Below, piece after piece: positions 19,371 through 44,473 of a stretch of 49,120 nucleotides of DNA. The position numbers were made by a program, and so were the translations under genes. The stretch spans positions 1 through 49,120 of the IMG/VR virus record IMGVR_UViG_3300037285_000249; one strand, given 5' to 3'. Below the pieces are notes generated by a model. It searched no databases. It saw only the letters and a program-made list of their open reading frames with translations, and was not told the DNA's origin. This DNA comes from a virus. Positions within the stretch are counted from its first letter, which is position 1. Every line of letters begins with the position of its first letter.

Positions 19371-21647
19371 TTATATTCTCGTGTTACCATAATGGATCAC
19401 TGTGACGTCGGCATTCTCATATGTACGCCATGGATCAACCACAATGCTGCCATCAGGAATGGCACAGTACATTGGCTGTGGGTTATCGCCACCCAAATAT
19501 TTGTATGTGGTGCTTGCATCATGTGCAAGCAAAAACACACTGGGCATAATGGGATTGTAATGATCGCCCGTCAATGGGTCAGCGTACATGGGAATTACTC
19601 CTAACTCTTCACAAAAATGTCCGACTAATAAACTATAGCTACCATCTTCATAGGCTACGCCAGGTTTGTATGCCTTACCATGAATTACAATCTGCATGCC
19701 ATTGAGTTGTGCTTCTGATACCAACCGCTTGGCAATATTTTTAGCTTGCACGTCACGTGCATTCATAATAGCATCAAACATGTCATACCCTAAGTCCAGC
19801 TTTTCAGCCATGTGTCGCAGCGCAATGTTATCACGTGGGTGACATCCGCCACCATCGCCCATACCAGCTTTCATGTATTGTGGACCAGTGATGCGCATGT
19901 TTGACTTTGCCAATGCATCTGTCACCACATCAACATTGATATTGCCTTGTGCCTGTGCCACATCTTGTATCATATTGACAATGCCAATTTTTGCACTAAT
20001 GAACGTGTTTCCTTGCCACGTGCATTTTCCGTTACGTCTAGTCATAAACACATGATATTTTGGCAACATAGCGCAATACACTTGACCTGAATAATTTATC
20101 CTGTCAAATTTTAAACCTACAGAAGAAGATTTCTGATAGTTCGACGTATTGCCAACTAACTCATAAATTAAGTGGCATGGCTTATTTGATAATTCAGATT
20201 CAGTTGTTCTATAGCTTGGGAAACGACCAATTTTGATAATAAGTTCTCCTAAATCAGCCGCCATTTGGTCAGAACTAGAAGCATAATACTTATAACGTCT
20301 GTCATTTTCAACAGTCCCATTAAATCTGGTAGTCCCCATTGCACTACCGTCTGCTAAATTGTATATATCTAAAAACAATCGAATCATATCTGTGCCTAAT
20401 GTTTTAATAGTTTCAGGAATAAACTTATCAAAAGATTTACCGTATATTGACAGTTCTTGGGCCAACTCTTTCCACAATAATGACATTCCTGCCTTACCTT
20501 CACACAGTTTATTGTTACCAGGATATAGCGAATGTATAACAGTAAATACTTCATTAATCATTTCGTATTTGTCAGCGTTTACATCACGATCTTGACTAAT
20601 AATAATTCTGCCAGAACTACAGCACCCTTCACTTAAATACCATGCCATAAATTGGACATATATAGCAGTTGGTATTTCTATCCCTGCAAGTGCAATAGTA
20701 TTTGGTGAATCGTTATGCCATTCAGTTGACCTTTGAAATACAAATCCAGATCGCTTGACAACATCTTCTGCGGCCATTAGGCCCCAAGAATATCCCCATT
20801 GGTTACCGTCTAATTGCGGTGATCTGTACGAAGTTTGTTTGCCCATAAACATATTATGATTGGGCGTAACAAGTATATCGTCCTTGCTACTGTGGAAGTG
20901 AATCATCTCCCCATCCCACAATCTTGATACCCATTTATTGGGTTTGACCCACTCAGGTATCATCGTTTCTGGATTTAATGCAAGCACTTCATCATCATGC
21001 CCAGCATCACTAAAATTCTTCCAGCCATTGTCAGTTAACACTTCAGTGTCTGCTGAATAACAATTATAAAATACTTTGATACATTCACATTCATCCCATG
21101 TACCAATTTCATAACGTGGATCATTCTGCATAATAGTTCGATAAAAGTCAACCAACTGTCGGGCGTCACCAGTTTGTGACCCATCTTCTGTGCCAATCAT
21201 AACCATCTCTGGATTAACCATGTCCCATGCTACACTGCCCATGGCAATCAGGTATGGGTTGTAAATGAATCTGGTGTTGGTAACAAGAGGGATAAATTCT
21301 CTGCGAGTGGTACCTGGCAATACTGTGCTGATCAATACCAGCAATTGGTCGCGGGTCATATGCTTATCAGCTTCTGTCATTACTGCCTTGACAATATCAT
21401 AATTGAAGTCTTTGGGCGCAAGGTGTGCAGTTGGGGCGCGGCCATCATACTCTGGGTCATGTGGTGTTGGCACTGCAATGAACACAATGTCTTTATCCTG
21501 AACACAATCTTTAATAGTGTCAACCACTGTGATTATATCTGATTCACGTGGTGCAACATCATAACCTGTGACTGTGTGTCCACCTTGTGCCATGGCTTCT
21601 GCACATGGCATTCCTAATTTTCCAATTCCAATAAATCCAATTCTCAT
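19371..21647 (-). CDS. UDP-glucose/GDP-mannose dehydrogenase interrupted by an intein
   Basis: The 758-residue precursor splits into N-extein 1-195, intein 196-547 and C-extein 548-758, leaving a 406-residue host enzyme of normal size. The N-extein has MRIGFIGIGKLGMPCAEAMA, FIAVPTPHDPEYDG and LISTVLPGTT. After splicing, ECIKVFYN joins TFISAKIG, restoring the conserved K-x3-N helix. The C-extein carries MGDGGGCHPRDNIAL with catalytic C602, and VIHGKAYKPGVAYEDGS of the C-terminal domain. The reaction would be NAD-dependent oxidation of a UDP- or GDP-sugar to its uronic acid. The intein lies within the active-site helix, so the enzyme should be inactive until splicing. Confidence 0.9.
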   Translation of the reverse strand: MRIGFIGIGKLGMPCAEAMAQGGHTVTGYDVAPRESDIITVVDTIKDCVQDKDIVFIAVPTPHDPEYDGRAPTAHLAPKDFNYDIVKAVMTEADKHMTRDQLLVLISTVLPGTTRREFIPLVTNTRFIYNPYLIAMGSVAWDMVNPEMVMIGTEDGSQTGDARQLVDFYRTIMQNDPRYEIGTWDECECIKVFYNCYSADTEVLTDNGWKNFSDAGHDDEVLALNPETMIPEWVKPNKWVSRLWDGEMIHFHSSKDDILVTPNHNMFMGKQTSYRSPQLDGNQWGYSWGLMAAEDVVKRSGFVFQRSTEWHNDSPNTIALAGIEIPTAIYVQFMAWYLSEGCCSSGRIIISQDRDVNADKYEMINEVFTVIHSLYPGNNKLCEGKAGMSLLWKELAQELSIYGKSFDKFIPETIKTLGTDMIRLFLDIYNLADGSAMGTTRFNGTVENDRRYKYYASSSDQMAADLGELIIKIGRFPSYRTTESELSNKPCHLIYELVGNTSNYQKSSSVGLKFDRINYSGQVYCAMLPKYHVFMTRRNGKCTWQGNTFISAKIGIVNMIQDVAQAQGNINVDVVTDALAKSNMRITGPQYMKAGMGDGGGCHPRDNIALRHMAEKLDLGYDMFDAIMNARDVQAKNIAKRLVSEAQLNGMQIVIHGKAYKPGVAYEDGSYSLLVGHFCEELGVIPMYADPLTGDHYNPIMPSVFLLAHDASTTYKYLGGDNPQPMYCAIPDGSIVVDPWRTYENADVTVIHYGNTRI
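20007..21062 (-). mobile_element. Large intein with LAGLIDADG-type endonuclease domain
   Basis: The intein is 352 residues, from C196 to N547 of the precursor, followed by Thr as +1 residue. Block A is CYSADTEVLTDNGW. Block B is ILVTPNHNMFMG, with the TxxH pair. Endonuclease motifs are FMAWYLSEGC (about 333) and LFLDIYNLADGSA (about 424). Block F/G is VYCAMLPKYHVFMTRRNG, ending WQGN. The residue before the terminal Asn is Gly instead of the usual His. Both endonuclease motifs keep an acidic residue (E340, D433), so the homing activity may be intact. Confidence 0.92.
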
Positions 21648-39480: not shown

Positions 39481-40035
39481 ATGAAAATATTAATCAGCGG
39501 CAACGCCCACGAGGGACTGAGTGCAGCCATAGGCAGGTTGTATCCTGACCAAGTGACGTTTGCCAGCCGTACCACAGGATACGAGTTAACCAATGATGCT
39601 GGCCGTGATGCATTTTGTGATTCAGCTGTTGACACAGACGTGATCATCATCTGCGCAGCACTGTGGAGATTTCAGCAAACTGTACTGCTGGAAGCTGTTA
39701 GCAAGCGTCTGCGCTCGGAGATGAAGTCTCCGCACATAATCGTCGTAGGTAGCACCACTGATCGTGTAAAGAATGGCAAACCCTGGTTGTACAATGCCGA
39801 AAAGAAGGCCTTGCGTGATTTCAGCAACACACTCAGCATAGGCGGAGTTTGGACTGATGGTTTGCCCAAGGTATCATACATCAGTTTTGGTACCTTGTCC
39901 AACAACCAACACAAACATCCAGACCGTAAATGTCTGGATATTGACGAAGCGGCTGGTTACATTCAGTGGTTGATTTCCCTACCCAAACATGTTAGTATAA
40001 ACGAAATAAGTATCGATCCCTTGCAAGGAGACTAA
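39481..40035 (+). CDS. Short-chain dehydrogenase-like protein
   Basis: A 184-residue Rossmann protein opening MKILISGNAHEGLSAAIGRL (GxxxGxx-I). It has TDVIIICAALWRFQQTVLLE, PHIIVVGSTTDRVKNG and WLYNAEKKALRDFSNTLS, whose Tyr-x3-Lys is the SDR catalytic pair. VSYISFGTLSN follows. It is about 60 residues shorter than a normal classical SDR, so substrate and cofactor sides may be reduced. A related short SDR lies on the minus strand at 45579-46067. TAGGA precedes the ATG. The small zinc-ribbon array starts eight bases after its stop, so both may share a transcript. Confidence 0.65.
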   Translation: MKILISGNAHEGLSAAIGRLYPDQVTFASRTTGYELTNDAGRDAFCDSAVDTDVIIICAALWRFQQTVLLEAVSKRLRSEMKSPHIIVVGSTTDRVKNGKPWLYNAEKKALRDFSNTLSIGGVWTDGLPKVSYISFGTLSNNQHKHPDRKCLDIDEAAGYIQWLISLPKHVSINEISIDPLQGD

Positions 40036-40042
40036 TTCGATT

Positions 40043-40228
40043 ATGCGGCATTATAAAATTCATCCCAGTCATTTGAGGAAATCTAAATACCCTCATGCAG
40101 GCGATATTACTTGTACCAAGTGCGGATTTCGCATGCTGGTGGCGTACTTCGACACTGCAGAAGGAAAGCTGCCATGTATTAAAAATGGCGGCAGGTTGAC
40201 AATCGTTATGCCCATGAAAGAAACATAA
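40043..40228 (+). CDS. Zinc-ribbon-like array protein 1
   Basis: First of twelve tandem paralogues, 61 residues. It carries the family pattern: H7-P-S-H10, C24-x2-C27, a third cysteine C45, and the closing strand RLTIVMPMKET. The HPSH box and the three cysteines could bind one zinc ion, and the closing strand would complete a small beta sheet. The GGAG before its ATG is the only separate ribosome-binding site of the array apart from those made by gene ends. Its stop overlaps the next ATG (TAATG). No database family is recalled with this exact pattern; role unknown. Confidence 0.75.
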   Translation: MRHYKIHPSHLRKSKYPHAGDITCTKCGFRMLVAYFDTAEGKLPCIKNGGRLTIVMPMKET

Positions 40229-40422
40229 TGCGTTATATGCACCCCAGTCATGAAGTAGAAACCAGTCATGAAGTAGAACTAAATGGGATCAGCACTGCGA
40301 GATGTAAGAATTGTAGTTGTTTTATATGGACACATCGCTCGGACGAGCTGCGACTGTTTGAACAACATTGCCTAAAAAATACCAAAAAGATAACTATAAT
40401 CTGGCCCAAGAAGGAACCATAA
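40228..40422 (+). CDS. Zinc-ribbon-like array protein 2
   Basis: Second copy, 64 residues, with H5-P-S-H8, C26-x2-C29 (plus C31), C48 and the closing strand KKITIIWPKKEP. It contains a perfect six-residue duplication near the front (SHEVETSHEVEL), so the second SH is a copy of part of the HPSH box. The end codons include AAGGAA, which serves as ribosome-binding site for the next copy. It is coupled on both sides by TAATG. Confidence 0.75.
   Translation: MRYMHPSHEVETSHEVELNGISTARCKNCSCFIWTHRSDELRLFEQHCLKNTKKITIIWPKKEP
40244..40279 (+). repeat. 18-bp tandem duplication within array gene 2
   Basis: The unit ccagtcatgaagtagaa plus one variable base occurs at 40244-40261 and again at 40262-40279. 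It encodes SHEVET/SHEVEL. The identity of 17 of 18 bases points to a recent slip or duplication event. Confidence 0.9.
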
Positions 40423-40610
40423 TGCTCCATCATCCCAGTCATGAAATAGACACATCTGTCCCAACTGAAATTGGGTCCTGTGTGCATTGTGATTTTATTA
40501 TGTGGCCACATGCCTGGCTGGATAAAAACCCTCACGACAGTCCGCAGTTTCGCCCTTGTCCCCAAAACACCAATACATTTACTATCATCATGCCCAAGAA
40601 AGAAACATAA
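40422..40610 (+). CDS. Zinc-ribbon-like array protein 3
   Basis: Third copy, 62 residues: H4-P-S-H7, C20-x2-C23, C46 and the closing strand NTFTIIMPKKET, the most typical version of the family ending. An in-frame extension upstream to 40368 exists, but the ATG at 40422 restores the family N-terminus and the TAATG overlap. The last codons (AAGAAAGAAAC) lead straight into the next start. Confidence 0.75.
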   Translation: MLHHPSHEIDTSVPTEIGSCVHCDFIMWPHAWLDKNPHDSPQFRPCPQNTNTFTIIMPKKET

Positions 40611-40813
40611 TGCCCCGACCTCGCAAAATCCATCCCAGCCACAACATGACCAGGGATACCGCTTTTCTGACCTTAGCTGGTGTTCCACCACGGCTTGGAG
40701 GTAGATGGTGTGAGTCGTGTCGTGAGCGTTGGATCACTCATCTACAACACCCTTGCAAACATAACACCAACACAATGACAATGACTATATTTTTGCCACG
40801 GAAACAAACATAA
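40610..40813 (+). CDS. Zinc-ribbon-like array protein 4
   Basis: Fourth copy, 67 residues: H8-P-S-H11, C34-x2-C37, C49 and the closing strand NTMTMTIFLPRKQT. The loop between HPSH and CxxC is about ten residues longer than in copies 1-3. It shares the C(K/P)HNTNT phrase with copies 3 and 10, evidence of common descent beyond the metal ligands. TAATG overlaps at both ends. Confidence 0.75.
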   Translation: MPRPRKIHPSHNMTRDTAFLTLAGVPPRLGGRWCESCRERWITHLQHPCKHNTNTMTMTIFLPRKQT

Positions 40814-40998
40814 TGGCGCATTACACTCATGATATGCGATACAATCCAGGATGTGATTGGGTTCAGTGCCAAAACTGCCGGATGTACGTGGCCAGGGAAG
40901 ATCAAGTATCAGAATTTAGGAAAGTGCACCTTAATCAAGTTTGTAAACATAGCATAGCTGGTGGGTTTCGTATACAGCTATTAAGGAAACAGCTATAA
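40813..40998 (+). CDS. Zinc-ribbon-like array protein 5 (diverged N-terminus)
   Basis: Fifth copy, 61 residues. The HPSH box is replaced by H3-Y-T-H6, so the two histidines keep their spacing. C19-x2-C22, C44 and the closing strand GGFRIQLLRKQL are kept; C14 is extra. It is the most diverged member but keeps size, spacing and TAATG coupling, so it is surely part of the array. Confidence 0.7.
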   Translation: MAHYTHDMRYNPGCDWVQCQNCRMYVAREDQVSEFRKVHLNQVCKHSIAGGFRIQLLRKQL

Positions 40999-41183
40999 TG
41001 AAACACTTTCGGCCGCACCCAAGTCATATCATAGACGATGTTGCCCATCCATTAATACTCTTGGGAATCAGTTGGTGTAAATATTGTCGCCGCCAGGATA
41101 CATCACTGGAAATTATGGGGCAGTGTACGCATTCCAAGTCATTTATGATCGTATTATCCCAGAAAGTCCGCGATGCAAATTAA
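40998..41183 (+). CDS. Zinc-ribbon-like array protein 6
   Basis: Sixth copy, 61 residues: H7-P-S-H10, C27-x2-C30, C43 and the closing strand KSFMIVLSQKVRDAN. The distance between CxxC and the third cysteine is the shortest in the array. It is followed by an 11-base overlap with copy 7, so coupling changes from TAATG to a longer overlap here. Confidence 0.72.
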   Translation: MKHFRPHPSHIIDDVAHPLILLGISWCKYCRRQDTSLEIMGQCTHSKSFMIVLSQKVRDAN

Positions 41184-41358
41184 AGTTATATATCATCCCA
41201 GCCACAATGTGGTTTACGATGAGCGGGCGCGATACTTGCCATGGTACTGTACACATTGCGGGGTGCCTATCACCATTGGCTCGATGCGCGGCCCGAAACC
41301 ATGCCCAGTAAATTGCCAAACAATAACTATTCAATTGCCAACAAAGGTGAACATATGA
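41173..41358 (+). CDS. Zinc-ribbon-like array protein 7
   Basis: Seventh copy, 61 residues: H8-P-S-H11, C26-x2-C29, C44 and the closing strand QTITIQLPTKVNI. An extra cysteine, C48, lies four residues after the third ligand, giving CPVNC and a possible complete four-Cys site. Its stop overlaps the next ATG (ATGA). Confidence 0.72.
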   Translation: MQIKVIYHPSHNVVYDERARYLPWYCTHCGVPITIGSMRGPKPCPVNCQTITIQLPTKVNI

Positions 41359-41612
41359 GTTTACATCCACCCCATAGTCTGCTATATCATAGGCCACTTG
41401 TGACACCCGAAGAATTTGGTGTAAAAATTCACAATAGTCACCACATGGACGTTAAAATATCGTCTGATGGCGTAACAAAATTACATGCACCACACTGCAT
41501 ACATTGTGACGCTTCTCGTAGTTGGTTGTTCAGTGTTCGTGACGTTACTGCACCGTGCACCAACTGTAGACAGTTGACAATTAGGTTGGGTAGCAATGGG
41601 TCAACAGCATGA
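41355..41612 (+). CDS. Zinc-ribbon-like array protein 8 (extended)
   Basis: Eighth and largest copy, 85 residues. It has two histidine boxes, H4-P-P-H7 and H26-N-S-H-H30, separated by about 20 residues, then C48-x2-C51, C68-x2-C71 and the closing strand RQLTIRLGSNGSTA. The extra front part may come from fusion with the start of another copy. With CxxC twice, it can form a classical four-Cys zinc ribbon by itself. ATGA overlap on both sides. Confidence 0.72.
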   Translation: MSLHPPHSLLYHRPLVTPEEFGVKIHNSHHMDVKISSDGVTKLHAPHCIHCDASRSWLFSVRDVTAPCTNCRQLTIRLGSNGSTA

Positions 41613-41815
41613 AAAAATATAAGATTGACCGCAATTTTCCAATCCATACCAGTCATGACATGATTGAATTGTACCCAGGTGGCGATTTCCGTATATACGG
41701 ATGTAACAACTGTGGTGAAACAGAGATACTTCAAGTACTGTCAGATAAACTGTCCGCAACGTGTACCAACATCAGCAACTCTTTGACCATTGTGCTGGGC
41801 AACACTGATGCATAA
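41609..41815 (+). CDS. Zinc-ribbon-like array protein 9
   Basis: Ninth copy, 68 residues: H13-T-S-H16, C32-x2-C35, C52 and the closing strand NSLTIVLGNTDA. The ending LGxxxDA is shared with copy 10 (LGKRADA) and differs from the PKKET ending of copies 1-3, so the array seems to hold at least two subgroups. It overlaps copy 10 by 8 bases. Confidence 0.72.
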   Translation: MKKYKIDRNFPIHTSHDMIELYPGGDFRIYGCNNCGETEILQVLSDKLSATCTNISNSLTIVLGNTDA

Positions 41816-41996
41816 ACCAATCCACCCCACGCACCATGCTCAACGCCTTCTAAACTTTGATGATGGGTGGGTGTGTCGCGATTGCGGCAACTTTAATGTG
41901 GGTGGTATGGATAAGTTGCCGGGCACTATGAAATTTATATGTCCACACAATACCAACACGTTTGTCATCCATTTGGGTAAACGTGCAGATGCATAA
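41808..41996 (+). CDS. Zinc-ribbon-like array protein 10
   Basis: Tenth copy, 62 residues: H6-P-T-H9, C23-x2-C26, C45 and the closing strand NTFVIHLGKRADA. WVCRDCGN resembles a textbook zinc knuckle (CxxCG). Its front, MHKPIHPTH, is nearly the same as that of copy 11 (MHKRHHPTH), pointing to a recent pairwise duplication. It overlaps the next gene by 8 bases. Confidence 0.75.
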   Translation: MHKPIHPTHHAQRLLNFDDGWVCRDCGNFNVGGMDKLPGTMKFICPHNTNTFVIHLGKRADA

Positions 41997-42171
41997 ACGT
42001 CACCACCCCACCCATAAAATAGCCTTTGATTATATCGATGGTGAGTACATCTGTCGTAATTGTGGTATTGAGGCCTGGCAAACTCACCCAGATGGTGAAA
42101 TGGCATTTGCTAATGTATGTGCTGCGGCAATTGTGTGTTCATTACCCATAGCGATGCCAACAAGGAAATGA
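41989..42171 (+). CDS. Zinc-ribbon-like array protein 11
   Basis: Eleventh copy, 60 residues: H6-P-T-H9, C22-x2-C25 in YICRNCG, C44 and C50, and an atypical end CSLPIAMPTRK. The stretch after C44 (AAAIVCSLPIAMP) departs from the family strand pattern, so this end may be frameshifted or replaced. ATGA links it to copy 12. Confidence 0.7.
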   Translation: MHKRHHPTHKIAFDYIDGEYICRNCGIEAWQTHPDGEMAFANVCAAAIVCSLPIAMPTRK

Positions 42172-42353
42172 GTATGATTCATCCCAGCCATGATGTAAGT
42201 GTATCCATAAAAGGGTATCCTGTTCTGTTGCAGTGCTATAATTGCAATCACATCACATTGCGCCCTGATGAGTACAGCAGACTGACTGCACGGTGTACCA
42301 ACAATCCAAATAAGATAACTATAACTATGCCCAGGAGAATAAATGACAGATGA
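42168..42353 (+). CDS. Zinc-ribbon-like array protein 12
   Basis: Last copy, 61 residues: H5-P-S-H8, C23-x2-C26, C43 and the closing strand NKITITMPRRINDR. The family pattern is complete. An ATG two codons on would also work. It overlaps the start of the first-exon copy of the radical SAM gene by 11 bases, so the array and the radical SAM locus were translationally coupled, at least before the endonuclease gene was inserted. Confidence 0.74.
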   Translation: MSMIHPSHDVSVSIKGYPVLLQCYNCNHITLRPDEYSRLTARCTNNPNKITITMPRRINDR

Positions 42354-42542: not shown

Positions 42543-43106
42543 ATGTCTAAGTATATTTATATCGTGTATAAAACTATAAATTTAGTAAATAATAAGTTTT
42601 ATATAGGAAAACACCGCCAACAAAATGATGAGTTCGACGGATATCTCGGCAGTGGGATATTAGTAAGCAAGGCTGTAGCTAAATATGGGCGTGAGAATTT
42701 TATTAGAGAAACCATTGGTGTATTTGATACAGAAAATGACTGCTATCAAGCCGAATCCAAAATAATTGGTGATTTATGGAAAGAACGAAGTTGTTATAAT
42801 TTAGCGCCTGGTGGTGACTGTGGTGTGGCAGAAACAAAACAAGAATGGTGGAATAACAATCCAGACGCAAAAGAAAACCGTAAACAAGATTGGGAAAATA
42901 ATAATCCTTCTAAAACTCGCGCAGGACGCCAAAGAATTCAAAAATCAAATAAAAATAGAATATGGTCAACTGATGCAAAAGAAAAATGTGGATTACCTCA
43001 TAGAGGAAAACCAAAGCCAAGAAAAATTTGTCCACATTGTGATAGATCAATAGCAATTAATTTATTTGAAAGGTATCATAATGATAAATGCAAGGAGAAG
43101 AAATGA
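42543..43106 (+). CDS. GIY-YIG homing endonuclease
   Basis: The ATG follows GGAGG and gives 187 residues. The N-terminal domain has KYIYIVYKTINLVNNKFYIG (Tyr-Ile-Tyr ... Tyr-Ile-Gly, the GIY-YIG pair), FDGYLGSGILVSKAVAKYG and CYQAESKIIGDLW with the metal-binding Glu. The linker is rich in Asn, Lys and Arg. The C-terminus has CPHCDRSIAINLFERYH followed by NDKC, a CxxC...H...C zinc finger for DNA binding. It lies upstream of, and outside, the group I intron, so it is a free-standing nuclease that may cut the intronless gene. It overlaps the downstream exon by 4 bases. Confidence 0.92.
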   Translation: MSKYIYIVYKTINLVNNKFYIGKHRQQNDEFDGYLGSGILVSKAVAKYGRENFIRETIGVFDTENDCYQAESKIIGDLWKERSCYNLAPGGDCGVAETKQEWWNNNPDAKENRKQDWENNNPSKTRAGRQRIQKSNKNRIWSTDAKEKCGLPHRGKPKPRKICPHCDRSIAINLFERYHNDKCKEKK

Positions 43107-43250
43107 ATAAAGATCTAAAATGGAGTGAATATGACTTCACAAAAATACCATTTGACGACATTGTAAGTGTAGGGCAACGAACTATGTTGTATCGTGACTT
43201 GTTCACTGTCTCATGGCTTTTAGGAAGGTTTTGTAATTACCGCTGTTCGT
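43103..43250 (+). CDS. Radical SAM protein, exon 1
   Basis: Exon 1 starts at an ATGA overlap with the endonuclease gene and runs to U43250. It encodes 49 codons plus one base, ending GRFCNYRCS, with the first two cluster cysteines C44 and C48. Without splicing the frame runs into TAA within a few bases. Joined to base 43506 it reads CNYRCSYCWPYA, restoring CxxxCxxC. The spliced gene is 1116 bases, exactly 372 codons including stop. KWSEYDFTKIPFDDIVSVGQ near the front has no recognised fold. Confidence 0.9.
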
Positions 43251-43505
43251 AAACATAATGCGACTTCATACAGCGATGTATGTCGAATAATCCCTTTAAT
43301 TGCTGGAAACTCCCATTCAAATAGGACAATCAGCAGCCAAGCTCTTAGTAGAGAAGGTTCAACGACTAGTCGAAAGACGTACACTCAAGTTAGTGGAAAC
43401 GGGGGACAACTCAAGTAGTTGATGATATAGTCTAATCTATATGGTAACATATAGCAGTTCATAAGAGAACGGGATAGAATTAACGACTCTATTTGAATAT
43501 AAATG
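43251..43505 (+). mobile_element. Group I intron (255 bases, no ORF inside)
   Basis: Core elements are visible in order: P/Q strands around tgctggaaac (43301) and cagcagccaa (43331), R around aaggttcaacgacta (43354) and S around gatatagtc (43424). P7 pairs GACTA (43364-43368) with TAGTC (43428-43432). A P9-type hairpin CTATATG-GTAA-CATATAG (43437-43454) has a GNRA loop. P1 pairs exon UCGU with intron GCGA, leaving a U-G pair at the splice site, as group I introns require. The last base is G. The intron has no endonuclease gene. Confidence 0.92.
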
Positions 43506-44473
43506 ATTGTTGGCCATATGCCCGCAGCAACACCAAGGACCATCGTCCCACTGATGTTTGCCTGAGTACAATTGATGAGATCAAACGTCAGGCCAGAGAA
43601 AATGGCTTCAACAGCTTTCACTTCAGCTTGAGCGGTGGTGAGCCCACGTTCCATCCTGGCTACTTGGACATTCTAAAACACTTGGCAGACGATGTAGACA
43701 ACACAAACTACACCAGTATCCATATGACCAGTAATTGCAGCCGCCCCATGAAATGGTTTGAAGAATATGTTGAATGTGCAAAGCCATTCCATCGTGCCAG
43801 CATCACTGCCAGTTTACACACTGAACATTTGGACACAACTGAAAAACTGCAAGGCTTTGCAGACAAGTTGATTTATTGTCAACAGCATGATGTGCAAGTT
43901 ACAATCAACATGGTGATGGTGCCTGACTGGTTTGACAGAGACTGGGAAAACGCATTGTTTTTCCACAATCAGGGTATCAATGTCACACTCAAGCCCATGA
44001 GTGATCCAACTGCCAGCAGGGTGGTTGATGGTTACACAGATCAACAAATGAAGAGTCTGTACAATGGTATGCCACAACGTGGTTATACAGAGGCCAGACG
44101 TATATGGCAAGATCGTCCAAAACCTGACTTCCAAGTACCAGCCCATGCTGAAGGTGAAACCAACGACAAAAGTGTGCCGTGGCATATGCAAGTCGAGTTC
44201 AAAGACAGCACAGGCAAGAAATGGTACATGGATCAAGCCGAACGTTTTAACGCGTTCAACTTTAATAAATTTGAAGGTTGGATGTGCAACAGTGGCTATC
44301 AGGGTATTATTATTCGTGAACCAGATGGCAGCATCAAGCGCAGTTACAGTTGCCAAGATGCGCCGTTGGGGAATATCGAAACTGGATTCAAACTATTTGG
44401 CGCACCCAAGGTGTGTATTAGTAAAGCCTGTGTGTCAAGTGCAGACAGCAAAATACCCAAGAGAAAAATATGA
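43506..44473 (+). CDS. Radical SAM protein, exon 2
   Basis: Exon 2 completes a 371-residue enzyme. It supplies the tyrosine codon's last two bases, C51 (third cluster ligand), FHFSLSGGEPTFHPGYLDIL (SAM motif), IHMTSNCSRPMKWFEEYV and the barrel. The C-terminal part has FEGWMCNSGYQGIIIREPDG, YSCQDAPLGN and VCISKACVSS, resembling the Cys-rich ends of the products at 29276 and 35657 and fitting an auxiliary cluster. A false ORF beginning at ATG 43493 runs from intron into exon. Translation of the active enzyme depends on splicing. Substrate unknown; the array of small proteins just upstream is a candidate partner by position only. Confidence 0.9.

Follow-up and report, generated by a model that had tools for sequence, protein, structure and literature searches.

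The window, that is, the whole stretch of 49,120 nucleotides analysed here, is a fragment of an uncultured virus. On its plus strand, positions 40043–42353 are occupied by twelve same-strand ORFs of 59–85 amino acids tiled end to end (Table 1). Five of their junctions are TAATG stop/start overlaps, one is a 2-nt gap, and the others are overlaps of 11, 4, 4, 8 and 8 nt; the start of the next gene (42343) lies 11 nt inside copy 12. The twelve small consecutive ORFs reported in the initial annotation are thus confirmed, overlapping or abutting save at that one gap, as is the extension of copy 8, which is N-terminal. In 11 of the 12 copies, codon usage points to the annotated frame rather than to either alternative forward frame. 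Overlapping or abutting frames make translational coupling within a single transcript likely, so that the twelve genes probably form one operon. Promoter and terminator scans, including a scan for T4-like late promoter motifs, gave no signal above shuffles. The idea that the PKKE ends double as ribosome-binding sites is weakly supported, a strong upstream site being present at 5 of 12 starts versus 16% of random positions.

Table 1. Features of the array and of the genes that border it (positions in the window).
Feature	Position	Strand	Remarks
SDR-like gene, left slot boundary	39481–40035	+	143 relatives; 'SDR-like' by eye, no Pfam match
Array copy 1, 61 aa	40043–40228	+	HPSH-CTKC-C; PMKET end
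Array copy 2, 64 aa	40228–40422	+	HPSH-CKNC-C; PKKEP end
Array copy 3, 62 aa	40422–40610	+	HPSH-CVHC-C; PKKET end
Array copy 4, 67 aa	40610–40813	+	HPSH-CESC-C; PRKQT end
Array copy 5, 61 aa	40813–40998	+	HYTH-CQNC-C; weakest frame preference; weak leave-one-out score
Array copy 6, 61 aa	40998–41183	+	HPSH-CKYC-C; weak leave-one-out score
Array copy 7, 61 aa	41173–41358	+	HPSH-CTHC-C
Array copy 8, 85 aa	41355–41612	+	HNSH-CIHC-C; extended N-terminus; weak leave-one-out score
Array copy 9, 68 aa	41609–41815	+	HTSH-CNNC-C; LGNTDA end
Array copy 10, 62 aa	41808–41996	+	HPTH-CRDC-C; LGKRADA end; structure modelled
Array copy 11, 60 aa	41989–42171	+	HPTH-CRNC-C
Array copy 12, 59 aa	42174–42353	+	HPSH-CYNC-C; structure modelled
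Truncated radical-SAM duplicate, first 41 codons	42343–42465	+	85% identical to exon 1 over 117 nt
GIY-YIG homing endonuclease gene	42543–43106	+	PHROG 314, E 1.5e-31; ORF listed from TTG 42519
Group I intron, 255 nt, ORF-less	43251–43505	+	RF00028, 94.8 bits at 43209–43454
Radical-SAM exon 2, right slot boundary	43506–44473	+	PF04055; 237 relatives

All twelve products share one pattern: H-x-[ST]-H, 12–22 residues, CxxC, 11–24 residues, a third Cys, and a closing tail of 10–18 residues in which one Ile is invariant (12 of 12); the variants of the His box are given in Table 1. The shared two-histidine box, CxxC and third cysteine previously described are therefore present in every copy, with spacings close to those claimed. 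The pattern is not a chance one, as it is absent from 7,740 background ORFs of 50–100 amino acids and is reproduced in at most 0.3% of composition-preserving shuffles of each copy. When each copy was searched for, among about 30,000 background ORFs, with a profile HMM of the other eleven, it ranked first in every case, with E values from 7e-5 to 1e-10 for nine copies and weak values for copy 5 (0.004), copy 6 (0.011) and copy 8 (0.026). The twelve genes are paralogues that arose by amplification and have kept a common His/Cys frame, and the profile ranks bear out the amplified set that had been proposed. Subgroups, earlier defined by PKKET and LGxxxDA ends, are visible by eye as PKKE ends in copies 2 and 3, PMKET in copy 1 and LG..DA ends in copies 9 and 10. 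Copies that lie close together are no more alike than copies far apart in the array (Spearman 0.03, p 0.57), and the tandem order of duplication is not recoverable.

The copies are on average 34% identical in pairwise comparison; the 3' ends of copies 1–4 are 72–77% identical at the DNA level. Synonymous sites between copies are saturated (mean pS 0.79; mean pN 0.46), which together with the low mean identity indicates that the duplications are not recent. A mean pN below mean pS is consistent with constraint on the protein sequence. The set had also been called fast-diverging; this is not supported as stated, dN/dS having been rejected as its measure because pS is saturated and there is no second array for comparison.

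The array occupies, as a cassette, a hypervariable slot in which genes are swapped. The SDR-like and radical-SAM genes that flank it are adjacent in 25 of the 46 relatives that have both, and the remaining 21 carry 0.7–4.6 kb of other genes in the slot, including radical-SAM, SGNH-like and nucleosidase-like genes (named by eye), and in no case the array. Contigs with the radical-SAM or the SDR-like gene often carry the T4-type capsid family Gp23, and the source phage is a large T4-like phage. In another phage (L143, 6546–9578) the slot holds four tandem SGNH-hydrolase-like paralogues, so that tandem amplification at this position is not unique to the array. This precedent, together with the truncated gene duplicate that adjoins copy 12, could suggest that tandem duplication in a slot prone to recombination simply produced the array, which would then have little function, but twelve frames have stayed open with all five candidate metal ligands intact despite synonymous saturation, and pN lies below pS; we consider this origin most improbable.

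More widely, the array lies in a surface-modification island with tail and sugar-modification genes, and not among known anti-defence genes. Elsewhere in the window, a UDP-sugar dehydrogenase-like ORF of 758 amino acids (19371–21647) seems, by eye, to contain an intein, and an ORF of repeated units (STILSSFSSPS..PTGLAFDGTNLISC) at 83–787 is possibly a tail adhesin, also by eye. A hypervariable cluster for host recognition is known from pelagic T4-like phages, and it too acquires radical-SAM cassettes (PMC7029224). This cluster of pelagimyophages and cyanomyophages is, like the window, a large variable T4-like island in which radical-SAM cassettes accompany tail fibres and sugar enzymes, and the portions of that paper drawn on here make no mention of a small-protein array of the present kind (PMC7029224). 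Such surroundings and the likeness to the pelagic cluster raise the question of whether the array products are assembly factors or decorations tied to the tail-fibre and glycan-modification island, varying with the host surface. Single-copy relatives of the products (see below) nevertheless sit among mixed accessory or nucleotide-metabolism genes and not among tail genes, and we regard a role of this kind as quite unlikely.

Downstream of copy 12, whose end is overlapped by the truncated radical-SAM duplicate, the order is truncated duplicate, GIY-YIG gene, true exon 1, group I intron and exon 2. The intron, whose ends were set by comparison with the intronless contig L095, splits the CX3CX2C iron-sulfur motif of the radical-SAM gene. 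The GIY-YIG gene precedes exon 1 rather than sitting within the intron, and it does likewise in L102, where endonuclease gene, exon 1 and intron follow one another as they do here, although both the array and the truncated copy are absent. The truncated duplicate is probably a recombination scar, and its likely origin is the entry of the endonuclease–intron unit into a genome that had the array directly before the radical-SAM gene, an event that would have left part of the old radical-SAM 5' end behind.

Nine radical-SAM genes are present in the 49-kb window (8778–44473), and related contigs carry 22 (G040, 518 kb) and 15 (G063, 203 kb). The radical-SAM protein beside the array (ORF 43493–44473) has 237 relatives in IMG/VR, and a search of 50,697 deposited phage records with it gave no match. 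Radical-SAM RiPP clusters have small Cys-containing ORFs beside radical-SAM genes, an arrangement that the array shares. The proposal, made in the initial annotation, that the products are substrates of a nearby enzyme would in this case mean RiPP-like precursors of the neighbouring radical-SAM enzymes, which would fit the number of such genes in the window, the 11-nt overlap of copy 12 with a radical-SAM start codon, and products that are small, Cys-containing and hypervariable. This proposal is weakened by the distribution of both partners. The adjacent enzyme is about 80% identical in the 80 relatives inspected (of 237), none of which has the array; 18 of the 21 other carriers of the module described below gave no PF04055 match (several are fragments), and both complete cultured phage genomes with the module lack radical-SAM genes. 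Furthermore, the conserved residues are distributed along the entire chain, as they are in folded metal domains, unlike the leader and core of RiPP precursors, and nothing next to the array was recognised as a dedicated enzyme or an export gene. The adjoining radical-SAM enzyme is probably not the partner of the array, and a substrate role for the products appears very unlikely.

A match of the array products to a well-characterised family was looked for in Pfam, PHROGs, NCBIfam, PADLOC and PDB sequences, and none was found above cut-off. The earlier statement that no described family has this pattern thus holds for the family libraries, while the pattern itself recurs elsewhere, in a single-copy module. 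The best sub-threshold matches are zinc ribbons (RNA polymerase, TFIIB, ribosomal). In the Pfam zinc ribbon and treble-clef families (Zn_Ribbon_TF, Zn_ribbon_RPAB4, zf_Tbcl_2) a CxxC knuckle lies between short strands, as it does in the structural models of two array copies, but all array matches to these families are below cut-off. Moreover, a classical zinc ribbon has two CxxC (or CxxH) knuckles on two hairpins, whereas array products have one CxxC, with HxxH and a lone Cys instead of the second. These weak matches, and a net positive charge in 9 of the 12 copies, would suit small proteins that bind nucleic acid and regulate transcription or translation in the phage or its host; however, no zinc-ribbon match reaches any cut-off and the range of charge, from –3 to +8, argues against one shared nucleic-acid ligand, and we find a regulatory function unlikely.

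Structural models are of moderate quality, both for copy 12, predicted from the alignment of the twelve copies (pLDDT 74, pTM 0.47), and for copy 10, predicted with the outside module added to the alignment (pLDDT 79, pTM 0.56); in both, short strands flank the CxxC. PDB structure searches with the two models returned nothing significant (no match below E 0.6). In BFVD, the copy-10 model matches best a viral protein of 152 amino acids (probability 0.96, E 0.099), which is not independent evidence, as sequences of the outside module were in the copy-10 alignment; the module protein of the Rhizobium phage is equally long, and the matched protein may well be this one. Judging from the conserved residues, the array products would bind one metal ion, probably zinc, via H-x-x-H, CxxC and the later Cys.

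The single-copy module is about 42 residues long (HPSH...CxxC...PC) and is either free-standing or joined to either end of different proteins. The first lead to it was contig L216, among the matches listed in a single-gene pattern scan of IMG/VR, which encodes a protein starting MSYHPSHDRRF...YICDKC...KPCP; this domain led on to Rhizobium phage RHEph12, Rhodobacter phage RcXuper, one Rhizobium plasmid ORF and 18 IMG/VR contigs. Whole-record searches found one clear copy per carrier, and no Pfam or NCBIfam entry matched the module. In RcXuper (L295, 5989–6507) and in L322 it is fused to PHROG 1540, a label without function. A search of genome contigs with one module member yielded two contigs only; matches on Streptomyces plasmids were rejected as members as they are without the HxxH motif.

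Several comparisons link this module to the array. L216, which came from contigs preselected for the motif, gave a supporting match (E 7.7e-5); with no such preselection, the array-only profile matches a 518-kb contig of the same phage group (E 9.3e-5), whose sequence bridges the array copies and the outside module. In a joint alignment of 28 rows, 16 of them outside sequences, the five candidate ligands (HxxH, CxxC, C) are invariant and in the same order. The profile–profile score is 37.8, compared with a mean of 23.8 (SD 3.6) for 100 permutations that kept the ligand columns; none of these reached the real score, by a narrow margin (best 35.9), which supports a similarity that extends beyond the ligands. 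The profile of the outside module alone gave no significant match to array copies (best E 0.57). The module of RHEph12/RHph_N46, RcXuper and the IMG/VR contigs has the ligand order of the array with similar spacing, often at or near a protein end, but it is often fused to other proteins and is without the closing TIxMPKK strand. In addition, its strongly conserved core, (T)RxSDAS.FDE.C..CGATD..GGWG, is absent from all twelve array copies, so the array is at most a diverged branch and not a typical member of the module. Because the outside-only profile misses the array copies and L216 was preselected for its motif, a common origin of array and module is not proven; with moderate support from these alignments, it is likely.

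The sequence searches covered IMG/VR, GTDB contigs, deposited phages and plasmids. DNA pattern scans of IMG/VR (two- and three-copy HP[ST]H spacings, the PKKE/TAATG junction), which can miss arrays with other motifs or spacings, returned simple repeats or chance matches only. No second array was found with the array or joint profile in about 140 phage records, or in the fetched relatives of the flanking genes, many related contigs being fragments, and no publication describing an array of this kind came up in literature searches.

Our preferred interpretation is that an undescribed phage module, in its free-standing form, would have been expanded in tandem in one lineage, its copies diverging deeply after the expansion, and that the resulting array was built or inserted as a cassette in the gene-swapping slot of a large T4-like phage. 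We hold the evolutionary part of this interpretation, the tandem expansion of an undescribed module, with good confidence. As to the role, the reading we favour is that each product might be a minimal scaffold, stabilised by metal, and that its variable surface would bind a partner of its own from the host or the phage, in which case host takeover or counter-defence would be the likeliest use; that the set consists of small metal-stabilised binders with differing partners is a tentative proposal. Taken as a whole, the combination of lineage-specific expansion of a one-metal module with binding of varied partners commands somewhat less than even confidence. More doubtful still is a stronger form, in which the phage would carry an exchangeable panel of twelve mini-binders, stabilised by metal and obtained by amplification of a single scaffold that is diversified much as antibody-like scaffolds are, every binder having its own target among host factors or defence proteins.

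In conclusion, these findings suggest that an unannotated putative metal-binding module is common to phages of several hosts, and that one phage carries twelve diverged copies of it. If these copies bind different partners, they would constitute a natural collection of variants built on a single small scaffold, and the array may then be useful for finding host factors or defences that are targeted by phages.
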